Source: Hyphomicrobiales bacterium
GTDB lineage: Bacteria > Pseudomonadota > Alphaproteobacteria > Rhizobiales > Beijerinckiaceae
Direction: 5' to 3'
Length of the DNA stretch: 64,000 nucleotides
Assembly (NCBI GenBank): GCA_019247605.1
Contig: JAFBAS010000100.1
Span: 1-64,000 of the forward strand
The notes under the pieces are model-generated. The model was not told where the DNA came from. It ran no database searches and saw nothing but the letters and a program-made list of their open reading frames with translations. A program made the position numbers and the translations under genes. Positions 3,566 through 40,764 of the stretch are shown in pieces (the first letter of the stretch is position 1; the number at the start of each line of letters is the position of its first letter).

Positions 3566-4675
3566 ATGACTCACAAGCTTCTTCTCTTGCCCGGCGACGG
3601 CATCGGTCCCGAGGTGATGGCCGAGGCCGAAAAGACCTTGCGCGCGCTCAAGGAGATCGGCATCGCTTCCTTCGAGACCGAGCGCGACCTCGTGGGTGGC
3701 TGCGCCTACGACGCGCACAAGGTCGCGATCACCGAGGACGCGATGCGCCGCGCCGAGGAAGCGGACGCGGTTCTCTTCGGTGCCGTGGGCGGTCCCAAAT
3801 GGGACAAGGTCGGTTACGATGTGCGCCCGGAGGCTGGGCTTTTGCGGCTGCGCAAGGATCTCGGGCTCTTCGCCAACATCCGTCCCGCCATCTGCTACCC
3901 CGCGCTCGCCGACGCCTCTTCGCTGAAGCGCGAGGTGGTCGAGGGCCTCGACATCGTCATCCTGCGCGAGCTGACGGGAGGGGTTTATTTCGGCGAGCCC
4001 AAGGAGATCGTGACGCTCGAGAACGGTGACAAGCGCGCCGTCGACACGCAGGTCTACACCACGCCCGAGATCGAGCGCATCGCGCGCGTCGCCTTCGAGC
4101 TCGCTCGCAAGCGGCGGAACAAGGTGACCTCGTCCGACAAGCGCAACGTGATGAAATCGGGGGTGCTGTGGACCAACACCGTCAACGCCTTGCATCAGGC
4201 CGAATATGCCGACGTCAAGCTCGAGCATCAGCTCGCCGACGCGCTCGGCATGCAACTCGTGCGCTGGCCGAAGCAATTCGACGTCATCGTGACCGACAAC
4301 CTCTTCGGCGATATGCTTTCCGACGTGGCGGCGATGCTCACCGGCTCGCTCGGCATGCTGCCTTCGGCTTCGCTCGGCGCCGAGGACAAGAAGAGCAAAA
4401 AGCGCAAGGCGCTCTACGAGCCGGTACATGGCTCGGCGCCCGACATCGCCGGCAAGGGCTTGGCGAATCCGATCGCGATGATCGGCTCGCTCGCGATGTG
4501 CCTTCGCTATTCCTTCGGCCTGGGGGAAGCGGCGGACGCGCTCGAGAAAGCGGTCGCGAATGTGCTTGCCTCGGGCTTGCGCACAAAAGACATCGCCGCG
4601 CCGGGCGCGAATGCGATCGGCACCACCGGGATGGGAGATGCGGTGGTCACGGAGCTGCGCCGCACGCTCAAGTGA
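3566..4675 (+). CDS. leuB: 3-isopropylmalate dehydrogenase
   Basis: [23 protein letters not shown]...[19 protein letters not shown]...[28 protein letters not shown]...[19 protein letters not shown]. Confidence 0.96.
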
Positions 4676-37281: not shown

Positions 37282-38055
37282 TCAAGCGGGGCGCGCCGAC
37301 GAGAAGGAAGCGACCTTGATCTTCGCCTGATCGAGACGCTGGCGCACGGCCTTGGCGAGCGATACGGCCGCTTGCGTATCGCCATGGATGCACACGGTGT
37401 CGATTGCGATCTTCTTCACCTTCCCGTTGACGCTCGTGATCGCCTGCTCCTCCACCATGCGCTGCACGCGCTCGGCGACCTTCTGAGGGTCGTGCAGCAC
37501 GGCGCCCTGTTTTCGGCGCGAGACGAGAAGGCCGTTATCCTCATAGGCGCGGTCGGCGAAGACTTCCATGATCGTCTTGAGTCCGGCCTTCTCGCCCGCA
37601 TCGACGAGCTTCGAAAACGGCAGGACGACGAAGGCGAGCTTGGCATCGACACCTTTGATGGCGGCGGCGAGCGCATTCGCCATCATTTCATCCTCGCAAG
37701 CCATGTTGGACAAAGCGCCGTGGATTTTGACGTAAGTAACCTCGTGCCCAGCGAGCGCCGCGATGCCTTGCAAAGCACCGATCTGATAAGCGACGAGCGT
37801 CTCGATCTCGTTTGCCGAGAGCCCTTGGATCTGCCGCCTTCCGAAGCCTTCGAGGTCGTGGAAGCCCGGATGAGCACCAATCGCCACGCCCTTCTGTTTC
37901 GCGACCTTCGCGGTCTTGAGCATGATCTGCGGGTCGCCACCATGAAGACCGCAAGCCACGTTGGCACTCGTGATCAAATCGAGCATGGCGTCGTCATCGC
38001 CCATCTTCCAAGGACCGAAGCTTTCTCCCATGTCGCAATTCAGGTCGACTTGCAT
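37282..38055 (-). CDS. pxpA: 5-oxoprolinase subunit PxpA (LamB/YcsF family)
   Basis: [45 protein letters not shown]...[20 protein letters not shown]. Confidence 0.96.
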
Positions 38056-38116
38056 GGCGAGCTCCTTTGCGAGCGAATGACGACGCGTCTCTTTGACCTA
38101 GTTCACTCGGAAGCCG

Positions 38117-39040
38117 CTAAGACTTCATTGCAATATTCCAGTCAACATCGAAGCCGGCCGCCTGTAGCTCACGGCTAAGCGCCTGCTTCCAGGCCCCACC
38201 GGAATCAAATGCCTGATAGATGACACCGCCAAAGTCGGACGGCACTTCTATGTCACCACGTTTGAGCGCGCATACGCGTGAGCGTCCAAGCCGACCGACA
38301 AAGTACCCTAACTCCAAGAGAACATTTTGCCGCGCTCTGGCTTGAAGTTCGCCGCCCTGAACGCTACCAACATCATCGGGCGTCAGTAGGATAACTGCGA
38401 ATCCAACATCACTATGGGCTTCAATCTTTTCTATTATAGTTCGGCCTTGGTCGGCTTGTTCATGGAGAATGATAGGCTCAAATTTGAGCTGCCCTAGGAA
38501 CCGGGCAACTGATTCGCGAGACCCTTCATCGTGGCCATGGACTATGAAGACTTTGCGGGCGGCAGGCCCAGAATCGATCGGTAGCAAAGTCGGCTCCGCC
38601 ATGCCCGTCACCGCTTTAACGTGGTCTATATAGTCGCGCGCAAATGGTGCGATCATCTGTGCTACCATATTCTGGATATCGGTAGATACCTTACGTCCGG
38701 TATAATAAAAAAGATGCGAAAATTGCACCGCGTCGTCTGGATTAGTGGCAAATCGGTCAATGAGGAGAATAACCAGGCCTAGTTCCTCTCGCGGTTCACT
38801 TGGCCATTGCAACCTCGCGCTACCCACGCCACCCTGTCTTGCTTGCCCTCCTGCAATCCACGCATTGAGATCGATGCCCTGCGTAAGGGTTGTCGAAAAC
38901 GGCTCGAGCGTCTCGGAATGTAGTATACGTGAAAGTTTTTTAAAATGGCGTTCAAAGGTGTTAAATTCGGCCGAACTTAGGTCACTGACTATATTTTCCA
39001 ACTGGCGAAAAATACTTGGATCGATGGGTTCACTACTCAT
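38117..39040 (-). CDS. TIR-like predicted nucleotide-binding protein with uncharacterised N-terminal domain
   Basis: C-terminal RKVFIVHGHDEGSRESVARFLGQLKFEPIILHEQADQGRTIIEKIEAHSDVGFAVILLTPDDVG...RARQNVLLELGYFVGRLGRSRVCALKRGDIEVPSDFGGVIY matches the PF10137-type TIR-like family pattern. Confidence 0.88.
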   Translation of the reverse strand: MSSEPIDPSIFRQLENIVSDLSSAEFNTFERHFKKLSRILHSETLEPFSTTLTQGIDLNAWIAGGQARQGGVGSARLQWPSEPREELGLVILLIDRFATNPDDAVQFSHLFYYTGRKVSTDIQNMVAQMIAPFARDYIDHVKAVTGMAEPTLLPIDSGPAARKVFIVHGHDEGSRESVARFLGQLKFEPIILHEQADQGRTIIEKIEAHSDVGFAVILLTPDDVGSVQGGELQARARQNVLLELGYFVGRLGRSRVCALKRGDIEVPSDFGGVIYQAFDSGGAWKQALSRELQAAGFDVDWNIAMKS

Positions 39041-39076
39041 TACGTTTCCCTGCTACTTGGCCCTAGTCGCTACCGC

Positions 39077-40042
39077 TCATATGCTTCTTAGCTTCTCACG
39101 ATTAAGGAGACTCTCGACCCGCTCCTCGATATGCGCGAGCATCGCGGCGAAGCGGCGCGCCTCCTTCTGCGCTTCCTCCATCGGAACGCAGACGAAGCGA
39201 ACGCGCCCGCCGGCTTGCGTCTGCGCGAAGCGCGACAGATCGGCCGTGATGATCGTCGCGATTTTCGGGTAGCCGCCGGTCGTGCCCCGGTCGGCGAGGA
39301 GCGCAAGCGGCTGGCCATTTCCGGGTACCTGAATACTGCCGGCGACCGTTCCGTCGGAGACGATGTTGAAACCATCCGCATGGGCGAGCTTGGGGCCTTC
39401 AAGCCGGTATCCCATGCGATCCGAGCGCGGGGACACCCGCCACTCGGCGCCCAAGAACAAGGCCACGGCCTCTGGCGTCATGGCGTCGTCCTGCGGCCCC
39501 AACACGACGCGGATCGGCCCTGGCTCGACGGGGAAAGGCTTGAAGCGGCGCTCGAATTCCCGGTTCTCCGCCGTGCCGACCTCGAGCCGGTCGCCACCCT
39601 GGAGTGGACGCGGATAGGGGCTTCCAAGCCCCGCCCTCGCCGAGACCGACAAGCTGCCGTAGACCGGCTTCCCCGCGATGCCGCCCTCGATCCCAAGATA
39701 GCTGAAGACCCCCGACCGCGCGGCGCTCACCGCAAATGTCGCGCCGTGGGGAAGCAACACGGTCTCATTCACCCAGGCGCCTCGCCCGTTGAGCGTCGCG
39801 GCACGGTCGGCGCCGGCGAGCGAAACGCGCACGGCACCGCCCATGACACGGAATTCCGCGCCGAGCGGGCCGATCTCGATCGCCGCCGCGCCAGGCTCGC
39901 CGCCCACGAGCGCGTTGGCGATCGCGAGCGATTTGAGGTCCATCGCGCCGCTTGGGGTCAAGCCGTAACGCTGCGCCCCCGAGCGGCCTTTGTCCTGCAC
40001 GGAAGTTGCCGGGCCGACCTTGTCGACGACGAGAACGCTCAT
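39077..40042 (-). CDS. pxpC: 5-oxoprolinase subunit PxpC (biotin-dependent carboxyltransferase family)
   Basis: MSVLVVDKVGPATSVQDKGRSGAQRYGLTPSGAMDLKSLAIANALVGG...GYRLEGPKLAHADGFNIVSDGTVAGSIQVPGNGQPLALLADRGTTGGYPKIATI; start by frame. Confidence 0.94.
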   Translation of the reverse strand: MSVLVVDKVGPATSVQDKGRSGAQRYGLTPSGAMDLKSLAIANALVGGEPGAAAIEIGPLGAEFRVMGGAVRVSLAGADRAATLNGRGAWVNETVLLPHGATFAVSAARSGVFSYLGIEGGIAGKPVYGSLSVSARAGLGSPYPRPLQGGDRLEVGTAENREFERRFKPFPVEPGPIRVVLGPQDDAMTPEAVALFLGAEWRVSPRSDRMGYRLEGPKLAHADGFNIVSDGTVAGSIQVPGNGQPLALLADRGTTGGYPKIATIITADLSRFAQTQAGGRVRFVCVPMEEAQKEARRFAAMLAHIEERVESLLNREKLRSI

Positions 40043-40764
40043 GCGTCGACGATCTCCGCGACCATTTCGCCGGCTTCCCCTGCCCGCTCGAGCGCATTCC
40101 ATTCGCTTGCCGGAACCGGCACGAAGGTGACGTGATCTCCAGGCTCGATGAGAAAGATCGGATCGCGGCGCGGATGATAAGTGCGCACCGGCGTGCGGCC
40201 CAGTATGTTCCAGCCGCTCGGGGCGGCGATGCATTGAATGCCGGTCTGAATGCCGCCTATGGCGATCATTCCGGCAGGTGCCTCGAGGCGCGGCTCCTGC
40301 CGGCGCGGCGTCGCGAGCTTCGGGTCGAGCCCGCCGAGATAGGTGAAGCCCGGCAAGAAACCGAGCATGTAGACGCGGTAGTCCGCGCCCGAATGGCGAG
40401 CGATCACCTCCTGCGGCGTGAGCTCGGCGCGCTTCGCCACGGCCTCGAGATCGATGCCGAATTCCCCGCCGTACACCACCGGCACGCGCCAATGGCGACC
40501 TTGGCGCGACGGCAAGCCCTTGCGGGCGGCGAATTCCATGAGCGTCCCGCCAAGCTGCGCATAATCGACCACGGTCGGATCGTAATGCACGAGGAGGGAA
40601 CGATATGTCGGGACCGTCTCGCGAATGCCGGCGAGCTTCTCTTGCGCGACGAGCGCGTCGAAGGCCAGCACGCGCCGGTTCAGCTCCGGATCGATACTGT
40701 TGCCGAATTCGACGACGAGCGCGCTATCGCCGCAAGCGAGGAGACGGGGGTAAGAGGTGGACAT
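40039..40764 (-). CDS. pxpB: 5-oxoprolinase subunit PxpB (allophanate hydrolase subunit 1 family)
   Basis: LACGDSALVVEFGNSIDPELNRRVLAFDALV...VYMLGFLPGFTYLGGLDPKLATPRRQEPRLEAPAGMIAIGGIQTGIQCIAAPSGWNILGRTP. Confidence 0.95.
   Translation of the reverse strand: MSTSYPRLLACGDSALVVEFGNSIDPELNRRVLAFDALVAQEKLAGIRETVPTYRSLLVHYDPTVVDYAQLGGTLMEFAARKGLPSRQGRHWRVPVVYGGEFGIDLEAVAKRAELTPQEVIARHSGADYRVYMLGFLPGFTYLGGLDPKLATPRRQEPRLEAPAGMIAIGGIQTGIQCIAAPSGWNILGRTPVRTYHPRRDPIFLIEPGDHVTFVPVPASEWNALERAGEAGEMVAEIVDA

Follow-up and report, generated by a model that had tools for sequence, protein, structure and literature searches.

SpbK of B. subtilis ICEBs1 binds the phage portal through its helical N-terminal domain; its TIR domains assemble into a TIR-STING-like filament and consume NAD+ (PMC12847820). 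Two further described systems, Cap12/TIR-STING of CBASS and PycTIR of Pycsar, have TIR domains of the subfamily considered here. TIR effector systems themselves are already known, whereas a two-part module consisting of such an effector and a small partner protein is apparently undescribed. We analyzed a stretch of 64,000 nucleotides from a Hyphomicrobiales bacterium (assembly GCA_019247605.1, contig JAFBAS010000100.1, hereafter the window), in which a TIR gene lies among the genes for 5-oxoprolinase. The features of the locus are as follows:

37282..38055, minus strand: pxpA, 5-oxoprolinase subunit A (PF03746, 3e-98)
38056..38116, minus strand: 61-bp spacer between the TIR gene and pxpA, with the pxpA ribosome-binding site AAAGGAG
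38117..39040, minus strand: TIR-effector gene, accessory insertion between pxpC and pxpA (307 aa, ATG start)
38120..38557, minus strand: TIR domain of the CAP12/Pycsar type, PF10137 (residues 162-307)
38312..38314, minus strand: predicted catalytic glutamate E243, motif RxNVxxELGxF
38606..39016, minus strand: all-helical N-terminal domain with the GSxxLxWP motif (residues 9-145), proposed sensor or regulatory part (AF2 pLDDT 89.8)
39041..39076, minus strand: 36-bp spacer between pxpC and the TIR gene; the partner-coding position in relatives, empty here
39077..40042, minus strand: pxpC, 5-oxoprolinase subunit C (PF02626; NF045499, 223 bits)
40039..40764, minus strand: pxpB, 5-oxoprolinase subunit B (TIGR00370, 181 bits)

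Our preferred reading, to which we assign a probability of about 0.6, is that the TIR gene encodes a horizontally acquired effector of the anti-phage type, which derives from a fusion, has lost its partner and was inserted between pxpC and pxpA; its helical sensor would cluster the predicted TIR NADases upon a phage cue, as in SpbK.

The TIR domain and its described relatives

A reading of the same DNA made from the letters alone (the sequence-only reading) had proposed a TIR-type predicted nucleotide-binding protein, and both the HMM search and the structure model bear this out. The match to PF10137 (CAP12-PCTIR_TIR) spans residues 163-279 and reaches 132.3 bits against a cut-off of 24.7 (E 1e-38). 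An AlphaFold2 model of the window protein, based on a 70-sequence alignment (mean pLDDT 89.8), consists of seven helices (residues 9-145), a linker, and an alpha/beta TIR domain; the aligned relatives are 42-79% identical to the window protein. TIR-STING filaments were the top Foldseek matches of this model, and a profile search of the PDB found TIR-STING and PycTIR (8jsj). Glu243, which is kept in the window protein and invariant in 70 of 70 homologues, falls in the column of the catalytic glutamate of TIR-STING, where that protein has the E of its NVVFEFG stretch. Judging by these sequence features, the protein is a putative NADase.

Among catalogued defence candidates, the TIR part of the window protein matches PDC-S35 of PADLOC, a putative single-gene system, at 141-239 bits. 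This match covers the TIR half alone (profile positions 110-261 or 133-276); the PDC-S35 models align only from residue 112 or beyond, and both the helical domain and the partner gene described below lie outside them. A search of one literature library for PDC-S35, or for a two-gene TIR system with a partner of ~95 aa, returned nothing. SpbK has the same layout as the window protein, i.e., a helical N-terminal domain, a linker, and a C-terminal TIR domain; however, its N-terminal domain has 94 residues versus about 145 in the window protein, and the relatives of the window protein, unlike SpbK, have a dedicated partner. SpbK was absent from the results of the PDB profile and fold searches with the window protein, and the likeness is one of architecture only.

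Since its TIR domain belongs to the CAP12/Pycsar Pfam family, the window protein could be viewed as an effector of CBASS or Pycsar, responding to a cyclic nucleotide whose cyclase is encoded at another locus of the genome. Cap12/TIR-STING has the TIR subfamily, the fold and the catalytic Glu in common with it; however, that system also has a STING domain and a CD-NTase, and the window protein has neither. The Cap12 NCBIfam equivalog models, whose cut-off is 450, score it at 44.9 and 36.4 bits, and its N-terminal domain is unrelated. PycTIR likewise shares the TIR subfamily (36 bits in PADLOC), but a Pfam search of residues 1-145 found no cyclic-nucleotide-binding domain in the window protein, and no PycC cyclase adjoins the TIR gene at this locus. 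No SMODS cyclase (PF18144) was detected in the window's genome, whereas control genomes were positive. On account of the domain content and the lack of SMODS, we reject a cyclic-nucleotide effector as very improbable. The sequence-only reading had correctly noted that no cyclase is adjacent, the neighbors being pxpC and pxpA; of the membership in the CBASS/Pycsar effectors that it suggested, the TIR domain alone is left.

An accessory gene in the pxp locus

On the minus strand, the order is pxpB, pxpC, the TIR ORF and pxpA, all in the same direction, with gaps of exactly 36 bp (pxpC side) and 61 bp (pxpA side) around the TIR gene. This order and these gaps were already given in the sequence-only reading, and the pxp identities are upheld by Pfam and NCBIfam. 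Its view that the gene probably shares the operon transcript also seems right, in that the TIR gene is probably expressed together with the housekeeping pxp operon. An N-terminal extension of the protein is excluded by an in-frame stop codon (TAG) 15 bp before the ATG and by the stop of pxpC. The GC content of the gene is 51% (GC3 49%) versus 60-68% in the pxp genes (GC3 77-82%), and its product is the only PF10137 protein of the genome. Another pxpA paralogue, only distantly related (48% identity), is also encoded in this genome (G000:C175:9613-10356).

The same-strand position within pxpBCA would suit a gene that takes part in 5-oxoproline catabolism or regulates it, a link that the sequence-only reading had offered beside that of an accessory gene. 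Comparison of the relatives, however, contradicts it; this was the refuting check that the sequence-only reading itself had named, and its outcome favors an accessory gene. In three congeners (L003, L004 and L005) and another member of the family (L006), the gene that comes after pxpC is pxpA, and the TIR gene is absent; among all pxp loci of the order that we examined, it is found in the window only. A related TIR of any kind occurs in 21 of 298 genomes of the order, and none of the homologue loci examined has pxp genes nearby. The metabolic role is therefore rejected as hardly credible, and the TIR gene is an accessory insertion.

No clear target-site duplication was found at the TIR gene when flanking repeats were sought as a mark of insertion. 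The pxpC-pxpA junction of the three congeners is a spacer, and short palindromic repeats fill two of the three. A palindromic heptamer repeat, (AGTAGCG)n, is dispersed across the genus (genomes G000-G003): its 19-mer, with at most 2 mismatches, has 18 matches in the window's genome and 195 in G001, versus 0 for the reversed control. In a congener, this repeat is found where pxpC and pxpA meet (spacers of L003 and L004), and the spacer in the window, GAGCGGTAGCGACTAGGGCCAAGTAGC, is perhaps left over from it.

The partner and the helical domain

In annotated plasmids, the TIR gene is preceded by a gene for a hypothetical protein of ~95 aa, the two frames overlapping or abutting. Using a partner profile, we found this partner in 80 of the 80 closest relatives in the genome collection, either immediately upstream or fused to the N-terminus; in 75 of the 88 non-fused cases, the two frames share 1, 4 or slightly more bases. 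The partner and the helical-TIR part form one chain of 405 aa in Agrobacterium and Neorhizobium. A maximum likelihood tree of 90 helical-TIR sequences places the window copy within the fused clade (support 100/100), where its sister is Rhabdaerophilum L063 (99/85) and Bradyrhizobium L064 joins next (99/92). The fusion junction in L063 reads NEANN-MTNGPIDQTILRQIEN, and the window protein starts with M-SSEPIDPSIFRQLEN, at the junction Met. The DNA upstream of the window TIR gene bears no resemblance to the partner. The partner profile has no match in the window's genome at E up to 10, although the same profile finds the partner in order members G251 and G143 at 3e-39 and 4e-32; with 191 contigs and a completeness of 98.85%, the partner could sit on missing sequence. 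The nesting in the fused clade, the start at the junction Met and the lack of a partner in the genome together indicate that the partner domain was secondarily lost, which is the simplest account, and the window copy is most simply an orphaned derivative. The stand-alone effector that the sequence-only reading considered is thus not naturally one.

The partner matched no family in Pfam, PADLOC or PHROG and nothing in known phages. In an AlphaFold2 model of the L063 fusion (pLDDT 91.3), it consists of three helices. Its N-terminus, KITGLDxLxxxL, recalls HK97 gp10, and a phage tail-completion protein was considered as a candidate; given a PHROG match at E=0.15 only, no match in Pfam and the three-helix model, this identification is unsupported.

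The helical domain (residues 1-145) likewise has no Pfam match, and the PDB contains no relative or similar fold that our searches could find. Searches with the partner or with the helical domain did, however, find the latter without a TIR domain at three loci. In L234, the partner is present and the helical domain, which shares 34% identity with the window protein across 134 residues, is followed by a hydrophobic C-terminus. In L246 (helical domain by hhalign, E 6e-18), the C-terminus matches PDC-S32; in this one case, the gene starts before the BREX pglX-type gene directly upstream has ended. In L247 (hhalign, E 3e-17), the C-terminus is again hydrophobic, as judged in both cases from the sequence rather than by a membrane predictor, and the gene adjoins a weak phage Mu F-like match. 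PADLOC candidates PDC-S32 and PDC-M14B are matched by proteins that share the helical domain, whereas their effector domains differ from TIR; the PDC-M14B match to the helical domain itself is weak. No relatives of the swapped effector were found in viral contigs and plasmids. One domain with exchanged effectors is a typical pattern of immune sensors. Because the effectors behind it are exchanged, residues 1-145 are proposed to be the sensing or gating part of the protein.

The genomic setting of the relatives can be described as follows. The TIR protein is found in 1,154 plasmid records (Klebsiella 619, Escherichia 368) and the partner in 989, i.e., the module occurs on ~1,000 plasmid records of Klebsiella, Escherichia and Salmonella. 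Chromosomal relatives have BrxA, BrxL, ThsA, ThsB, type I methyltransferases, MADS and Lamassu-like proteins among their neighbors, with integrases and transposases also nearby; overall, relatives are carried by plasmids and have genes of BREX, Thoeris, restriction-modification and toxin-antitoxin systems next to them.

Taken as a family, these proteins may represent an undescribed modular immune system, in which the ~95-aa partner and the GSxxLxWP helical sensor are combined with interchangeable effectors (a TIR NADase, a PDC-S32-type domain, or hydrophobic C-termini) on about a thousand enterobacterial plasmids, the window copy being a natural, partner-independent, single-gene derivative in a housekeeping operon; we put this forward tentatively, at somewhat less than even odds. 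The TIR protein has so far been catalogued as the single-gene candidate PDC-S35 or as a mere nucleotide-binding protein, while the natural unit has two parts, with a conserved, unannotated partner and a sensor domain exchanged among effectors. The chief interest of the locus lies in this unrecognized partner and in the natural orphan, which amounts to a natural experiment on the need for the partner. The trigger and the restraint of the predicted TIR NADases thereby become directly testable.

Constraint on the orphan and proposed mechanism

With L064 as the outgroup, 40 lineage-specific changes were counted in the window copy versus 11 in L063 (p=6e-5). The acceleration is alike in the helical and TIR domains (Fisher p=1), which speaks against a domain-specific relaxation that would have mapped the partner interface. 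The orphan gene looks constrained, yet faster evolving, and both an altered function and partial decay are compatible with this pattern; the faster evolution by itself fits decay and adaptation equally. Because all close relatives keep the partner that the window copy lost, impaired function is suggested. It is conceivable, if rather doubtful, that the gene is a non-functional relic, i.e., a piece that recombination took from a partner-helical-TIR fusion and that is now drifting, for which the lost partner, the faster evolution of both domains and a GC content of 51%, below that of the closest relatives (61% and 57%), would speak. Conversely, the reading frame is open across all 307 codons, 0 of the 69 columns conserved at >=90% are altered, amino-acid change is far below silent change (silent sites being saturated), and the start codon and operon position are neat.

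Under the preferred reading of an acquired anti-phage-type effector, the ancestor would have been a single chain of the 95-aa partner domain, the helical domain and the TIR domain, formed by fusion of the widespread two-gene module; the gene would have been acquired horizontally and have landed in the pxpC-pxpA spacer, and the partner part would have been lost. For the mode of action, SpbK is suggested as the best precedent by analogy. In the resting state, the helical N-terminal domain would hold the TIR domains apart. Once a phage-derived or host cue brought the TIR domains into clusters, composite active sites would arise around Glu243, and hydrolysis of NAD+ would stop the infected cell. 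Where the system is complete, aiding cue detection or gating the clustering is the partner's most likely task; the orphan may work without it, or less efficiently.

A different role of the partner would follow if the two genes were a toxin-antitoxin-like pair, with the 95-aa protein as the antitoxin and the window protein as a toxin without its antitoxin. The small gene comes first, the frames mostly overlap, the module is abundant on plasmids, and VapBC genes are neighbors in several plasmids that carry relatives. However, permanent fusion of the partner throughout a whole clade leaves no separable, labile antitoxin, and we infer from it that the partner is a stable sensing or gating subunit. 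In addition, the orphan persists in a housekeeping operon with intact catalytic residues, and on two plasmids examined, an IS5 or IS21 family element parts the partner from the TIR gene. We consider such a pair unlikely, and the anti-phage-type effector with a lost sensing or gating subunit is preferred.

Some minor observations concern the relatives. The two plasmids with intervening elements are K. pneumoniae pKpVP (L241, IS5) and an E. coli plasmid (L058, IS21); because of these elements, the two copies are split and perhaps inactive. On a plasmid of Pseudorhodobacter turbinis (L242), the partner and the helical domain are present and interrupted by an IS3-like element. In L068, a stretch of DNA resembling the TIR gene lies ~2 kb upstream (4226-4418) and is perhaps a tandem paralogue.
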